64,000 nucleotides of DNA from an uncultured bacterium. GTDB taxonomy: Bacteria; Nitrospirota; Thermodesulfovibrionia; Thermodesulfovibrionales; Thermodesulfovibrionaceae. Shown here piece after piece: positions 10,332 to 58,417 of the stretch. The stretch covers positions 1 through 64,000 of the forward strand of contig CALDSV010000021.1 of assembly GCA_937924475.1 (NCBI GenBank). Reading direction: 5' to 3'. How positions within the stretch are numbered: the first letter of the stretch is position 1; each line of letters starts with the position of its first letter. A program made the translations under genes and the position numbers. The notes below the pieces were generated by a model that had not been told where the DNA came from, did no database searches, and saw only the letters and a list, made by a program, of their open reading frames with translations.

Positions 10332-10772
10332 TTATGATACCATCAGGTAAATTCTTAGTAAAAGATTTGTTATCAATCCAGCAATAATATCGTCAAGCAT
10401 TATTCCAAATCCTCCTTTTATTCTCTTTTCCACTAGTCTAATTGGAGGTGGTTTTAATATATCAAAAAATCTGAACAATAGAAAACCCAAAAACAGATTT
10501 ATTGGAGTAGGTTCTATCAAAAATACAGCAGTGAAGTATCCTACAATTTCATCTATAACTATATAAGGAGGATCTTTTTCTCCACATCTCTTTTCTATAT
10601 TTTCCGAGCAGATTACTCCCAAGAGAAAAATAAAGAGGAGAATAAATGACATAGACAAATCTGAAGGTTTAAGGATTAATAATATGAGCATTGCAATAAC
10701 AGAAGCAACAGTACCAGGGGCTACAGGGAAATAACCTATGAAGAAAAAACTTGCTATTAGTCTGCAAAACAT
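10332..10772 (-). CDS. pgpA: Phosphatidylglycerophosphatase A
   Basis: FFIGYFPVAPGTVASV, DEIVGYF, RFFDILKPPPIR, MLDDIIAG. Confidence 0.9.
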   Translation of the reverse strand: MFCRLIASFFFIGYFPVAPGTVASVIAMLILLILKPSDLSMSFILLFIFLLGVICSENIEKRCGEKDPPYIVIDEIVGYFTAVFLIEPTPINLFLGFLLFRFFDILKPPPIRLVEKRIKGGFGIMLDDIIAGLITNLLLRIYLMVS

Positions 10773-10887: not shown

Positions 10888-10917
10888 TTGACCAAAAGGT
10901 ATATTTTTTGATATAAT
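10888..10917 (+). promoter_or_regulatory. Putative sigma70 promoter for the Ni/Co uptake operon
   Basis: TTGACC (10888-10893), 18-bp spacer, TATAAT (10912-10917). Confidence 0.65.
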
Positions 10918-10924
10918 TTTTTCC

Positions 10925-10982
10925 AAGCCATGAAGGCTTAATAAAGCTCAGAAGAGCTTGAATCCTTCATGGCTTTTTTTAT
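10925..10982 (+). promoter_or_regulatory. Leader hairpin with U-tract (candidate attenuator / structured RNA)
   Basis: Outer 12-bp stem AAGCCATGAAGG (10925-10936) / CCTTCATGGCTT (10964-10975), inner AAGCTC-AGAA-GAGCTT (10944-10959), then a T-run; lies between promoter and first CDS. Confidence 0.7.
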
Positions 10983-11012
10983 TTTTAAAAATTTCTAAAA
11001 AAAGGAGGTATT

Positions 11013-12161
11013 ATGCAAAAATTTCTTTTATTTCTCTTGGCATTATTATTACCTACAGCAGTAATGGCAGTTGATATTTCAGAAAAATTTGCCATCTCTG
11101 GTTCTGCTACTACAGTTTATCAATGGCTTAGAATGAGCAAGGGTTATGTGAACGCAGAAACTCAGGAAAAAACAAAAGACAGAGGTTCTGCTGTAGTTGA
11201 TTTCAATGTTTCATTTCATCCAACTGAGAATAACGAATTTTTCTTAAGGGCGAGCTTTGCAAAAGGAAGCGGTTTTCATTCTGAAAATTCAGGATATCCC
11301 TTTATTTTAAACCCCTATGCAGATGACCTCTTAATTGACTTGCACAACATAAATGGGCATGCAAGGGATCATTTGCAAGAACTTTGGTATTCTCATAAGT
11401 TTGAAATTCAGAAAGATATTTCTCTTAAAATGACTGCAGGAATAATTGATTCTACAGCCTTCATCGATGACAATGCCTATGCTAATGATGAAATTAGTCA
11501 GTTTATGAATGAGGCATTTGTTAATAATCCTCTTGCAAATCTACCAAGTTATGATGCAGGTGCAGCAATTGAATTAGAATGGGATAAATTTCATCTGAAA
11601 ATTGTGGGAATGCGTTCAAAGAATGAAAATAAAAATATGGATGAAAAAAAATATAACTGGTTAGGAGCCCAAATTGGATACAAGCTTGACACAACTCTTG
11701 GAGAAGGGAACTACAGATTTTATGCTTACACTACAAACAAGAGATTTGAAAACTGGGATGCTGATGCATACAAGGCATTAAAAGGCATAGGAGTAAGCTT
11801 TGATCAACAATTTATAAAAGAAACTTTAGGTGCCTTTTTCAGGGCAGGCATTCAATCTGCATCAGCAAAGGTAGACTTCAATAGAATGGTTTCTTTTGGA
11901 TTAAATCTAAATGGTAATGTATGGGGAAGAAAGGATGATGAAATAGGTATTGGCTATGCCTATCTGAAGAGTCCCTCAAAAAATGAAGATTTGAAGAATT
12001 CTCACATATTTGAAGGATACGTAAAATTTAATCTCTTTAGTTACAAATTTCTAAGCTCAAACATAACCTTAGATTATCAGTATATTCGTGACAATGCTCG
12101 AGATTCTGATAGCACAAAGGCAGGTCATATATATGCCGTAAGATTTAATGTTAACTTTTAA
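11013..12161 (+). CDS. Outer membrane porin-like beta-barrel protein
   Basis: Signal peptide [19 protein letters not shown], Opr-like barrel sequence, C-terminal AVRFNVNF. Confidence 0.65.
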
Positions 12162-12175
12162 GGAGGTATCATAAG

Positions 12176-12946
12176 ATGAAAAAATTCTCAATTTTTTTGC
12201 TTTCTTTATCTATATCTTTATTTTTTGGCACTTTAGCCTTTGCTCATTTTGGAGTTATAATGCCCTCTGATGATATTATTGGTGAGAAAGATCCTAAGAA
12301 ACTGACATTAAAAGTTTACTTTATGCATCCCTTTGAACAAGAATGGTTAAACATGGAGAAACCAAAAACCTTTGGAGTTTTCTTTGGAGAAGAAAAAATT
12401 GATTTACTTAACAGCCTTTTAAATAGAAAAATAAAAGGCAAAGATGCTTGGGAGGCTTCCTTTACTATTAAATCTCCTGGTGACTATATCTTTTATCTTG
12501 AACCACAACCCTACTGGGAGGCTGCTGAAGAAAAATTTATAGTTCATTATCCTAAGGTGGTAGTGCAAGCATTAGGTAAAGAAGAAGGATGGGATAAAGA
12601 GATAGGGCTACCTATTGAAATTGTTCCTCTTACAAGACCTTATGGACTTTGGGCTGGAAATGTTTTTCAAGGTATTGTAAAGGTTAATGGAAAACCTCTT
12701 CCCTTTGCTGATGTGGAAGTGGAGTACTTTAATGAAGGAGGTAAAGTAAAACCTCCAAAGGATGCCTATGTCACTCAGGTAATAAAAGCCGATGCTAACG
12801 GAGTCTTTACCTATGCTATTCCAAAGTCTGGATGGTGGGGATTTGCTGCCTTAACCACAGCTCCATACAAAATTAAAAAAGAGGGGAAAGAATATCCTGT
12901 GGAAATGGGAGGAATCATTTGGGTTAAAGCAAGGGAGATGAAATAA
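12176..12946 (+). CDS. DUF4198-like periplasmic protein associated with Ni/Co uptake
   Basis: Signal peptide; [10 protein letters not shown]...; [14 protein letters not shown]; immediately upstream of cbiM. Confidence 0.75.
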
Positions 12947-13539
12947 TGCATATATCAGAAGGAGTTCTTTCAGCGCCGGTGCTAATTACCGGCGCTGTTT
13001 TATCTTTAGGAGGTCTTACCTTAGGTTTAAAAAGAATAAAAAACGAAGACATACCAAAGGTGGCAATTTTATCTTCAGCTTTTTTTATTGCGTCTCTTAT
13101 TCATGTTCCCATTGGACCTACTTCTGCCCATCTAGTATTAAATGGACTTTTAGGAATGCTTCTTGGTTGGGGAGCTTTCCCGTCCATCTTTGTTGCTTTA
13201 ATTCTTCAAGGAATTTTATTTCAGTTTGGTGGACTTACCACTTTAGGAGTAAATACCTTTTCAATGGCTATGCCAGCAGTGCTTTCCTACTATGTTTTTA
13301 AAGGATTTTTAAAAGGAGGAAAAAATATAGCTTTCTTAGGTGGGTTCTTAGGTGGAGTTTTTTCTCTGCTTCTTGCTGCTTTATTTATAAGCCTTGCCCT
13401 AATCGAAACTGAGAGAAGTTTTACAGCAGTTGCTGGAACTCTCCTGGTAATGCATATTCCCATTTCTATAATTGAGGGAATTATTACTGGTTTTGTGGTA
13501 GTATATCTAAAAAAAGTTAAACCGGAGGCTTTAGGATGA
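12946..13539 (+). CDS. cbiM: Cobalt/nickel ECF transporter component CbiM
   Basis: N-terminal [13 protein letters not shown] (metal-binding MHI start), multi-TM. Confidence 0.93.
   Translation: MHISEGVLSAPVLITGAVLSLGGLTLGLKRIKNEDIPKVAILSSAFFIASLIHVPIGPTSAHLVLNGLLGMLLGWGAFPSIFVALILQGILFQFGGLTTLGVNTFSMAMPAVLSYYVFKGFLKGGKNIAFLGGFLGGVFSLLLAALFISLALIETERSFTAVAGTLLVMHIPISIIEGIITGFVVVYLKKVKPEALG
12971..12997 (+). other. GC-rich intragenic hairpin at the 5' end of cbiM
   Basis: CAGCGCCGGT-gctaatt-ACCGGCGCTG followed by TTTTATCTTTA; perfect 10-bp stem. Confidence 0.7.
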
Positions 13540-14126
13540 ATCGATTTTTTAATCCATTTTTTTATCTTTTCTTGATTCTGCAAATTTCTTTTATTTTATG
13601 TAACTTTGCCTATGCTCACAAAGTAAGTACTTATGCATACAGAGAAGGTGATATAGTTTTTGGAGAGTGTTACTTTGTTGATGGTTCACCCTGTAAAAAC
13701 AGTAAAGTAGAGGTTTATGATTCAAAGGGAAAGAAAATACAAGAGCTTTCTACAGATGAAAAAGGTAAATACAGTTTTAAAGCTCTGGAAAAGGGAACCA
13801 TAAAAATAGTGATTCCTGCTGGTGAAGGTCATAAAGCAGAGTATGTTCTGAAAGGATTAAAGGAAATAGATACAGATAAAGACATTAGCACGACAAAAAA
13901 GGAAGATAAATCATTTAAGCCTCAAGCATCCATAAACAAAGATGAAATAAGACAAGTTATTGATGAAGCCTTAGATGTGAAATTACAGGGTTTAAGAAAT
14001 GAACTTATGGACATAAGAAAACAAATGGATAGAGTAAGTTTAAGGGAGATTATAGGAGGGATTGGATATATTGTGGGAGTATGGGCTATAATAATGCTTT
14101 TAAAAAGAAAAAAAGATGCATCTTGA
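13536..14126 (+). CDS. CbiL-like accessory protein (signal peptide, Ig-like/carboxypeptidase-regulatory-like domain, C-terminal TM)
   Basis: Lies between cbiM and cbiQ; DSKGKKIQELSTDEKGKYSFKALEKGTIKI; C-terminal TM and Lys-rich tail. Confidence 0.6.
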   Translation: MNRFFNPFFYLFLILQISFILCNFAYAHKVSTYAYREGDIVFGECYFVDGSPCKNSKVEVYDSKGKKIQELSTDEKGKYSFKALEKGTIKIVIPAGEGHKAEYVLKGLKEIDTDKDISTTKKEDKSFKPQASINKDEIRQVIDEALDVKLQGLRNELMDIRKQMDRVSLREIIGGIGYIVGVWAIIMLLKRKKDAS

Positions 14127-14859
14127 GGAATTTTCAGAAGGAAAAAGTTTTCTTCATAGGACGGATCCCAGAGTAAAAATTTTAATATTTGCCTTATTTA
14201 GTCTAACCTGTGCTTTATCCTCAGGTATAAAGATCCCTGCTATCTTTCTTGCCTATTCCTTCATTCTTCTTGCCATAGCAAATCTAAGGACAAAATCGGT
14301 TTTTTCAAGAGTATTAATAGCAAATTTTTTTATTGCCTTTATATGGCTTTTTATTCCCTTTAGCTACCAGGGAAATCCTTATATGAACTTAGGACCCATA
14401 AAGATAAGTTATAAAGGATTAAAATATGCTCTTTCCATAACTCTAAAAGCCAATGCCATAATTATAGCTACCATAGCGCTTATTTCTACATCCTCAGTAT
14501 TTTCTCTTGCTCATGCTATGCTTCATTTGAAAATGCCTAAAAAAATTGTTACAATTTTCTTTCTCTTTTATCGTTATATTACAGTAATTCACGAGGAGTA
14601 TACAAAGATAAGAAAAGCAGTTGCTCTAAGAGGTTTTGTTCCAAAGACTAATATTCATACCTATAAAACCTATGCTTACATTATTGGAGGAATGCTTTTA
14701 AAAAGCTATGAAAGAGCAGAAGAGATCTACAGAGCCATGCTTTGTAGAGGCTTTAAAGGATATTTCCCTCTCGTTGAGCATTTTCAATTGAGAAAACCTG
14801 ATATAATATTCGGTATTATTTCAGCAGCAGTCATAATTTTAATTGGAGTTAATAGTTGA
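14116..14859 (+). CDS. cbiQ: Cobalt/nickel ECF transporter T component CbiQ
   Basis: RTDPRVKILIFALFSL; ERAEEIYRAMLCRGFKG coupling motif. Confidence 0.93.
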   Translation: MHLEEFSEGKSFLHRTDPRVKILIFALFSLTCALSSGIKIPAIFLAYSFILLAIANLRTKSVFSRVLIANFFIAFIWLFIPFSYQGNPYMNLGPIKISYKGLKYALSITLKANAIIIATIALISTSSVFSLAHAMLHLKMPKKIVTIFFLFYRYITVIHEEYTKIRKAVALRGFVPKTNIHTYKTYAYIIGGMLLKSYERAEEIYRAMLCRGFKGYFPLVEHFQLRKPDIIFGIISAAVIILIGVNS

Positions 14860-15506
14860 AAGCACCCTTAATAAGCCTTAAAGATATATCCTTTAGTTAT
14901 GGTGACAGAAAAGTACTTGACTCTATAAACTTAGAGATTTATGAAGGTGAAAGAATTGGCTTAATTGGCTCAAATGGTGCAGGAAAAACAACGCTTCTTT
15001 ATCTCATAATGGGATTACTTAAACCTCAAAAAGGAGCAATAGAAATACTGGGAAAAGGAAGAACTAAGGAAAAAGACTTCATAGAAGTAAGACAAAAGAT
15101 AGGCTTTCTTTTCCAGGACTCTGACAATCAACTTTTCTGTCCCACAGTAAAAGAAGACATCGCTTTTGGTCCCCTAAATCTTGGTAAGACAAAAAAAGAA
15201 GCAATGGAAATTGTAAGGGAGACCTGTAAAATTTTGGGAATAGAAGGTTTTGAGGACAGAGTTACTTATAAACTCTCTGGAGGTGAAAAAAGGCTTGTTG
15301 CCTTAGCCACAGTAATTGCCATGAAACCATTATGCTTTATTTTAGATGAACCCTCTGCCGGTGTTGATGAAAATAATGTGGAAAAAATAGTGAAATATTT
15401 AAAAAATAATGCAAAAACTTATCTAATTGCCTCCCATGATAGAGAATTCTTAAAGGATACAGTAGAAAAAATCATCACTTTGGAAAAGGGTAAGATTAAA
15501 TATTAA
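14856..15506 (+). CDS. cbiO: Cobalt/nickel ECF transporter ATPase CbiO
   Basis: Walker A GSNGAGKTT, signature LSGGEKR, Walker B CFILDEPSAG. Confidence 0.94.
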   Translation: MKAPLISLKDISFSYGDRKVLDSINLEIYEGERIGLIGSNGAGKTTLLYLIMGLLKPQKGAIEILGKGRTKEKDFIEVRQKIGFLFQDSDNQLFCPTVKEDIAFGPLNLGKTKKEAMEIVRETCKILGIEGFEDRVTYKLSGGEKRLVALATVIAMKPLCFILDEPSAGVDENNVEKIVKYLKNNAKTYLIASHDREFLKDTVEKIITLEKGKIKY

Positions 15507-56690: not shown

Positions 56691-56966
56691 ATCATCATCT
56701 AAAGCGCCGCCAATCTCATGCAGTCTTTGCACATCAACTCCAGCTTGTCTGAATAATGCTCCGTCAAGATTAGAGCTTATTCCCTGTAGTAAAAGTTCAG
56801 GGATAACAAATGTTGCATTAGGAGTAGCCTGCTCTTCTTTAATTTTCTCTTCAGATACAGTGATTTCATCAAGTTGATAAATTTTTGTAGTATCCTCTGC
56901 ATAGGATATAGTAAACATGGAAAGTAAGATTAAAAAAATCAAAAAAATCATTTTATCCTCCTCCAA
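56676..56966 (-). pseudogene. Truncated TonB-dependent receptor (signal peptide and start of plug only)
   Basis: YQLDEITVSEEKIKEE...NLDGALFRQAGVDVQRLHEIGGALDDDSI then stop; barrel absent; overlaps the 3' end of the activase gene. Confidence 0.75.
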
Positions 56967-57640
56967 TAAAAGATTTTTACCAAGGCATAATCTTTAAGAT
57001 AGAGATGTTCTCCCTTAAAGCATATGGATTTTAAGAGTTTTTCTTTTTCCCCACAAAAAAGTTCTCTTCGGTGTCTCCACTCCCAATGTTCAAAAACTTC
57101 ATTAAGGTCATGATACACAAAGGAGCTTTCACAAATATAGGAATACTTAAATATCAATGAGTATTCAGGATAGATAAAATTAATACTTGGAAGGTCTAAA
57201 TTTTTCTCGGTAATAAGAAAAACTCCTTCAATTTGGGAGTTAAAAAGCTTAAGTAAAGAGCCTTCAAGTCCATCTTCAGTAAGATGTAAGCTATTACAGG
57301 CCAAAGCAAGCTGGAAATCTTGAAGCTCAAAATAAGCTAAATCTTCAAATCTTCTTGGATCAATTTTTATATTTATTCCATATTTTATAGAGTTTTCATA
57401 GATGTATTTTTGCATGGAATCTGAAGGCTCCAAAGCTACTACATTACAGCCTATCTTCATTAAGTGAAAACTTAGGACACCATCGCCTGCTCCTATATCA
57501 AGGACTTTTATGCCCTGAGGTATTAGATTTGAGAGAATAATTTTTATGGGCTCGTGATATGGATTATGCTTGCGCCAAAGCTTATACCATCTTGTATTCT
57601 CATTCCAGTAAGAAATCTCTTTTATTTCATTAGCTAACAT
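56948..57640 (-). CDS. Class I SAM-dependent methyltransferase
   Basis: KVLDIGAGDGVLSFHLMKIGCNVVALEPS; start moved from TTG 57679 to ATG 57640 because the upstream codons lie in a terminator-like hairpin. Confidence 0.82.
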   Translation of the reverse strand: MLANEIKEISYWNENTRWYKLWRKHNPYHEPIKIILSNLIPQGIKVLDIGAGDGVLSFHLMKIGCNVVALEPSDSMQKYIYENSIKYGINIKIDPRRFEDLAYFELQDFQLALACNSLHLTEDGLEGSLLKLFNSQIEGVFLITEKNLDLPSINFIYPEYSLIFKYSYICESSFVYHDLNEVFEHWEWRHRRELFCGEKEKLLKSICFKGEHLYLKDYALVKIFYWRRIK

Positions 57641-57648
57641 AATCAAAT

Positions 57649-57687
57649 AAAAAAGCCACGGCTTAAGGCTTCTGCCCAAACCGTGGC
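57649..57687 (-). promoter_or_regulatory. Leader hairpin with U-tract (candidate attenuator / structured RNA), second copy of the 10925 architecture
   Basis: Minus strand: GCCACGG-TTTG-GGC-AGAA-GCC-TTAAG-CCGTGGC-TTTTTTATTT. Confidence 0.7.
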
Positions 57688-57727
57688 CTTCATGACCACT
57701 TATAGAATATTTTAAAGCTTAAAATTA

Positions 57728-57745
57728 ATCAGTCTTCTGACTGAT
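57728..57745. promoter_or_regulatory. Inverted repeat ATCAGTC-TTCT-GACTGAT upstream of the methyltransferase leader
   Basis: Perfect 7-bp arms read directly. Confidence 0.45.
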
Positions 57746-58013
57746 AATGAATAATATATTAATGAAATTTCGTTCCTTTGTCAACTCTTTTCATTACTTC
57801 TTTGATTACTATGTGAAAATGTTAAACCTATGAAACTCTCCTTCTTAAGGATAGACAATCGGTGGAAGACATTATAAAAAAATTATCTTTTATCTCCGAA
57901 AAGAGGATTAAGTTCAGCGTAAGGTGCTATCTAGCACACTAAATCAAAGTATAAGGGTCCTGTATAAGGGCCTTGCTACATTTTTTATGTCATTGCAAGA
58001 CTGCTTTTACCCT

Positions 58014-58336
58014 TTGTCATTGCCAAAACCCATAAGGGTGCGAAGCAATCTCCTCCCACCCCTTTTACAGTAAAAGCGTACAAAGGCGAGATTACTTCCC
58101 CCTCGCAAAGCTCGGGGTCGCAATGACTGTTTGGTTGAGATTGCTTCGTCGCTTACGCTCCTTGTAATGACAGAATAGAGGGTCATTGCAAGGCTCACTA
58201 AGTGAGCCGTGACAACCTCCTTCTCGTCATTGCGAGCAATCCAAAGGACTGCGTGGCAATCCCTTTGTAGGCTTTTTCGGTAAAAAATGTGGAAGATAAG
58301 ATTGCTTCGGGTGCTAAAGTACCCTCGCAATAACAA
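58014..58336. repeat. Dispersed palindromic repeat island (locus C), about six divergent half-units
   Basis: TTGTCATTGC...GAAGCAATCTC, GAGATTGCTTCGTCGCTTACGCTCCTTGTAATGAC, GTCATTGCAAGGCTCACTAAGTGAGCC, CGTCATTGCGAGCAATCCAAAGGACTGCGTGGCAATCC, AGATTGCTTCGGGTGCTAAAGTACCCTCGCAATAAC. Confidence 0.88.
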
Positions 58337-58417
58337 GAGAGGCATTGACAATTGAGAAGGTTACAGTGCTACAAAAAATTAGCGTTTTAAAAGAGGGATG
58401 AGATTTTTCAGGGATTT

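Follow-up and report, generated by a model that had tools for sequence, protein, structure and literature searches.

In the window (the whole stretch of DNA analysed here, 64,000 nucleotides), a methyltransferase operon on the minus strand and a porin-nikKMLQO operon on the plus strand are both preceded by a hairpin that ends in a U tract. The initial annotation had proposed these structures as a candidate structured-RNA leader shared by two putative metal-uptake operons, which raises the question of what the RNA does and what acts on it. Our reading, to which we give a probability of roughly 55%, is that both leaders work in cis as antitermination switches, within a nickel-uptake regulon that does not depend on NikR, and that the most likely factor is the DUF3842 protein, usually together with CooT.

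Tandem hairpins and terminators in two leaders

Hairpins followed by U tracts were indeed present at both sites, folding far better than shuffled sequences (z = −6.1 and −5.1), and folding confirmed the AGAA-capped inner hairpins that had been described in both leaders (Table 1). At 57649-57687 the stem proved to be nearly continuous: it is interrupted by a single bulge and lacks the large, asymmetric internal loop that had been proposed. The initial annotation had also missed H1 of the methyltransferase leader and H2 of both leaders, and it did not describe the competition of hairpins with the terminator, which is what makes these leaders informative. Each leader carries tandem hairpins, the second of which overlaps an intrinsic terminator, that is, a G+C-rich stem and then a U tract; because the terminators are located in 5' leaders, we regard them as attenuators and not as gene-end terminators. 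In the methyltransferase leader, H1 is separated by a linker from H2, and the 3' half of H2 is the beginning of the terminator 5' arm. Since H2 and the terminator stem have bases in common, they are mutually exclusive. When either leader was folded without the terminator 3' arm, small hairpins formed; with the 3' arm, the terminator formed.

The promoter-like site of the porin leader is strong, has H2 directly after it and is present in orthologs. That of the methyltransferase leader came from a scan whose result over the whole region was not above chance; its spacing is also visible in orthologous leaders, and the predicted transcript start, at about 57749, lies just 5' of H1.

Table 1 Features of the two leaders and of the genes that follow them
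Feature	Position	Strand	Evidence or remark
Methyltransferase leader: promoter-like site, TTGACA, 17 nt, TAATAT	57756..57784	−	10/12 consensus matches
H1 hairpin, AUCAGUC-AGAA-GACUGAU	57728..57745	−	folding; ortholog comparison
H2 hairpin, GUGGUC-AUGAA-GGCCAC, antiterminator form	57683..57699	−	folding with and without terminator 3' arm
H3 hairpin, AGAA loop, tip of terminator stem	57666..57677	−	folding; both-side changes at two pairs
Intrinsic terminator, GCCACGGUUU...CCGUGGC-UUUUUUAUUU	57645..57691	−	folding; R1 match at 57647-57690
SAM-dependent methyltransferase, first gene 3' of leader	56948..57640	−	Methyltransf_25, 1e-8
TonB-dependent receptor gene fragment, 96 aa	56676..56966	−	continues in relatives
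Porin-nikKMLQO leader: promoter-like site, TTGACC, 18 nt, TATAAT with TG	10888..10917	+	11/12 matches
H2 hairpin, AAGCC-AUGAA-GGCUU, predicted transcript 5' end and terminator 5' arm	10925..10939	+	folding; covariation
H3 hairpin, AAGCUC-AGAA-GAGCUU	10944..10959	+	folding; kept in orthologs
Intrinsic terminator, AAGCCAUGAAGG...CCUUCAUGGCUU-UUUUUAUUU	10925..10985	+	R1 match 10924-10981, E 4e-11
Operon: OprB-type porin, DUF4198 (NikK-like), CbiM/NikM, NikL, CbiQ/NikQ, ABC ATPase (NikO)	11013..15506	+	family profiles

Covariation had been claimed from a comparison of the two leaders with each other, which is a weak basis, and it is the ortholog alignments that show it properly. Orthologs of both first genes were taken from about 80 relatives, the methyltransferase being found in 30 of 81. 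The leader layout is kept in the genus Thermodesulfovibrio and in the order, with compensatory changes. Among methyltransferase leaders (10 orthologs), both-side changes occur in all seven pairs of H1, with compensatory changes in 7/7, and in three terminator/H3 pairs, giving 17 both-side-change cells in the alignment vs 6.1 in shuffles; the terminator stem has one A-U to G-C compensatory change, the H1 loop is AGAA or UGAA in most orthologs, and H2 is invariant in 10/10. A set of 23 leaders covered other families of the order besides the genus. Pairing in its terminator stem is 96%, and in 10 of the 23 sequences a C-G pair that H2 (as in the porin leader) forms with the 3' arm of the terminator is exchanged for U-A.

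The hairpins follow a common loop rule, (N)NGAA. The loops seen are AGAA, UGAA, CGAA, AUGAA, AAGAA, ACGAA, AGGAA and UCGAA, and the closing pair is mostly C-G. When the loop alone (C-(N)NGAA-G) was used to choose sites, pairing extended over all of the next three flanks at 59% of leader sites vs 7% of background sites, with all six standard pairs seen at each flank. An additional (N)NGAA hairpin, a feature unused by the covariance model described below, lies in the 100 nt before H2 in 87 of 194 distinct elements (shuffled leaders: 3.2 ± 1.8). Methyltransferase leaders combine H1, H2 and H3, porin leaders H2 and H3, and leaders of a TonB protein (loci L130 and L100) H1 and H2. These varied sets suggest a requirement for at least two hairpins in tandem.

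Further units are added in some leaders. Two complete attenuators stand in tandem within one leader at L193 (3260-3380) and in the L106 and L124 leaders. Extra (N)NGAA hairpins occur 3' of the terminator near the start codon at L043 (1400-1480), L044 (1394-1480) and L291 (2600-2720, minus strand), the last belonging to the leader of a TonB receptor in the same genome as the window; they hint at a second, translational layer of control.

As to the genes behind the leaders, NikL of the porin operon is an equivalog match above the family cut-off, and the CbiQ equivalog was also matched. Of the methyltransferase/TonB-receptor operon that had been annotated, the methyltransferase stood, and the receptor gene is a truncated fragment that ends after 96 codons, abutting convergent 2-hydroxyglutaryl-CoA dehydratase genes; it runs on in the sister genome (L032) and other relatives.

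Distribution, target genes and comparison with known RNAs

The covariance model R1, searched in 177 genomes of the order, found the element in 111 of them, and when 84,980 species genomes were scanned by pattern, at least 120 loci were obtained. Among the matches listed, these lie in Nitrospirota, Desulfobacterota, Clostridia (Eubacterium callanderi, Phascolarctobacterium, Tepidibacter, Alkalibaculum and others) and Spirochaetia; a few, such as those in Bacillus and Woesearchaeota, are likely chance matches. Acetobacterium wieringae is another carrier. Well over a hundred further copies exist, and the 5'-leader position held for them as well: most inspected copies are 5' leaders of nickel-uptake genes and do not lie 3' of genes. 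Two further R1 matches in the genome of the window, C58:8714 and C64:430 (apparently within coding sequence), are weak and were taken as chance.

The genes 3' of the elements encode NikM/CbiM, CbiQ, NikK (DUF4198), NikL, NikA/NikB-type ABC transporters, LarE, TonB receptors, TonB, ExbB/D, porins, a SAM methyltransferase, CooT paralogs, DUF3842 and FmdE. Among the matches listed, 69/120 elements have a nickel-set gene no more than 2.5 kb downstream, vs 6 that have one in the divergent direction. Because NikL, LarE and CooT are among the targets and the RNA exchanges with NikR (see below), nickel is probably favoured over cobalt as the metal concerned. The leader also allows nickel-transport genes to be recognized from sequence.

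Some elements of the genus precede genes for a UbiX-like flavoprotein or Mfd, which have no obvious link to nickel. Full H1-H2-H3 elements stand before the UbiX-like gene in the genome of the window (L091, 612-663 and following, contig C64) and before mfd (transcription-repair coupling factor) in three other species (L099, L101, L129); both kinds of leader share a CACCCCUUA...UAAGGGGUG hairpin further downstream, close to the ribosome-binding site. A protein of 65-80 aa with a conserved HWxxHNxEH-type motif and without a Pfam family recurs in element-controlled operons (L117, 6860-7069, minus strand; L114, L116, L120, L124, L107, L098, L102 and L112), and it may be a small nickel-binding protein.

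Comparison with Rfam 15 gave no matching family for the element at the gathering threshold, and relaxing the threshold gave no meaningful match (E up to 5, four element loci). A literature search of open papers found no nickel-uptake riboswitch and no nickel antiterminator. Relative to Rfam 15 and the open literature, the RNA is undescribed so far. The guanidine-II (mini-ykkC) riboswitch, whose loop is ACGR, resembles it in its small tandem hairpins and similar loops (ACGAA here); however, the loops here can also be AGAA, UGAA, AUGAA or AAGAA, the targets are nickel-uptake genes, and the guanidine-II covariance model had no match. The NiCo (czcD) riboswitch is likewise a leader RNA tied to nickel/cobalt genes, but it controls efflux via a four-way junction, whereas here uptake genes are preceded by simple hairpins; its covariance model had no match at the gathering score and none at E up to 5 (four element loci).

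The closest likeness is to the leaders bound by ANTAR proteins (eut, nas, ami), in which two small tandem hairpins have conserved loops, the second hairpin overlaps a terminator and the bound hairpin form permits read-through (PMC3369931), as we propose for the leaders here. Nevertheless, the hexanucleotide loops of ANTAR leaders have A as their first base and G as their fourth (PMC3369931), and the loops here are (N)NGAA loops of 4-5 nt that do not follow this rule. ANTAR-domain proteins were found nowhere in the genus and were absent from 170/177 genomes of the order, the other 7 having weak matches. Since both the loop rule and the protein fail, we rejected an ANTAR antitermination system.

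Exchange with NikR and the candidate regulator

A survey of 2009 found NikR in fewer than half of the organisms with NikABCDE, suggesting NikR-independent regulation (PMC2667541). The target set of the RNA is like that of NikR, namely NikMQO, NikK, NikL and related uptake genes (PMC545781); the difference is that NikR is a DNA-binding protein with the operator GTGTTAC-N13/14-GTAACAC and that the element here is a leader RNA. In the 177 genomes, with counts uncorrected for shared ancestry, RNA and NikR occur together in 2, RNA only in 109, NikR only in 34 and neither in 32; both genomes with the two have weak RNA matches. NikR is absent from the genus, and outside the order it is present in 2 of 43 RNA-bearing genomes. 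Within families, NikR without RNA was found in G067 (family f3) and in G047 and G158 (family f13), and G147 (family f2) has RNA without NikR amid NikR-bearing relatives. The recurrence of this exchange speaks against a mere effect of lineage.

The protein whose distribution nearly matches that of the RNA is DUF3842 (PF12953): again uncorrected for shared ancestry, both are present in 101 of the 177 genomes, RNA only in 10 (mostly incomplete bins or weak matches), DUF3842 only in 21 and neither in 45. DUF3842 and NikR occur together in 2 genomes, with partial DUF3842 matches. Outside the order, DUF3842 was found in 40/43 RNA-bearing genomes, and in 0/14 control genomes. The two are also physically linked: DUF3842 is within 2.5 kb of 14/120 elements among the matches listed, and in Desulfobacterota the order is DUF3842, then element, then NikM or ExbB. 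In the order, DUF3842 usually adjoins the nickel protein CooT, and in the genome of the window the DUF3842-CooT pair stands divergent to the gene of a TonB receptor, which is preceded by a multi-hairpin element of its own.

The predicted structure of DUF3842 is a Rossmann-like domain (pLDDT 92). A fold search gave weak Rossmann-like matches without a close solved relative, no recognized RNA-binding domain was found in the protein, and our literature search of open papers found no mention of it. DUF3842 could also be a nickel chaperone that accompanies the regulon without controlling it. CooT (PF10133; solved relative 6FAN) is present in 160/177 genomes of the order. Since it is near-universal and occurs in NikR genomes too, CooT by itself cannot explain the pattern, and we rejected it as the sole regulator.

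Proposed mechanism and its alternatives

The initial suggestion, which offered a choice between an attenuator that responds to metal, a small riboregulator and a leader bound by protein, is supported, and protein-dependent antitermination is the specific mode that we now favour. When nickel is sufficient, the unaided nascent RNA would fold the long terminator soon after the promoter, and transcription would stop. When nickel is scarce, an RNA-binding protein, most likely DUF3842 and usually paired with nickel-binding CooT, would recognize two or three tandem (N)NGAA-loop hairpins (H1, H2, H3); closed H2 would withhold the terminator 5' arm, and RNA polymerase would read into the uptake genes. 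Nickel binding to the factor would release the RNA. We take the hairpins to be the recognized unit and binding to lead to read-through because hairpin and terminator forms exclude each other and because H1 and H3 share a loop code, which in their case is not forced by the terminator. From the nickel-uptake targets we infer a factor that binds RNA at low nickel and releases it on nickel binding. The RNA and the regulon are well supported; what we presume in this scheme is that nickel acts as the signal, that the response runs in the stated direction and that DUF3842 or CooT contacts the RNA.

With chances a little short of even, DUF3842, usually with CooT, may be the first nickel-responsive RNA-binding antiterminator, a new system that would replace NikR in many anaerobes of several phyla. 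If this is true, the RNA offers a concrete answer to how uptake is regulated without NikR in many anaerobes, among them sulfate reducers and acetogens, that need nickel for their hydrogenases and CO dehydrogenases; the conserved protein DUF3842 gains a function and CooT possibly a regulatory role, and the leaders represent a new tandem-hairpin antitermination code.

An unlikely alternative is that nickel, a nickel complex or some other small ligand is sensed directly by the RNA, which would then be a riboswitch of tandem hairpin aptamers that works without protein, similar in style to guanidine-II, DUF3842-CooT being another nickel-handling part. Metal riboswitches exist, the loops of the tandem hairpins are strongly conserved, and DUF3842 is without a known RNA-binding domain. 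However, read-through is what the conserved hairpin state gives; a ligand stabilizing that state would therefore turn on the uptake genes, the opposite of what nickel itself should do. The hairpins are also small and simple for selective metal binding, and the near-perfect swap of NikR and DUF3842, with the physical linkage, points to a protein partner.

It is rather improbable that this partner is a different RNA-binding protein that reads the hairpins, with DUF3842-CooT relaying the nickel signal or simply being co-inherited. Co-occurrence of genes cannot separate an RNA binder from its partner, and the predicted fold of DUF3842 resembles dehydrogenase/flavodoxin-like Rossmann folds. Nevertheless, among the handful of families tested none was so tied to the RNA, CooT being near-universal and ANTAR absent.

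That the structures are plain intrinsic terminators or chance similarities without a regulatory role is very improbable, even though they are bona fide terminators and some pattern matches outside the main groups look like chance. They lie in 5' leaders just after promoter-like sites, the extra hairpins are conserved, and pgpA (10332-10772), the gene preceding the porin leader, is divergent, so this leader has no upstream gene to terminate. The distribution of the elements, with its excess of nickel-set genes downstream over the divergent direction, refutes this reading. Attenuation via a leader peptide, from an AUG AAG GCN small reading frame starting in H2, is barely credible: many leaders keep ATGAAGGC at H2, but the frame is not conserved, having three codons (AUG AAG GCU UAA) in the porin leader and 16 codons ending before the methyltransferase in the methyltransferase leader of the window, and running in frame with the methyltransferase in L033. 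In addition, roughly one in two H2 hairpins has ACG in place of AUG.

Open frames that resemble copies of a dispersed repeat (RDCxxV...IARNDE / SVSDEAI type) are present close to each of the two leaders on the minus strand, at 58007-58351 in the window and at 2782-3030 of L291, and are themselves on the minus strand.
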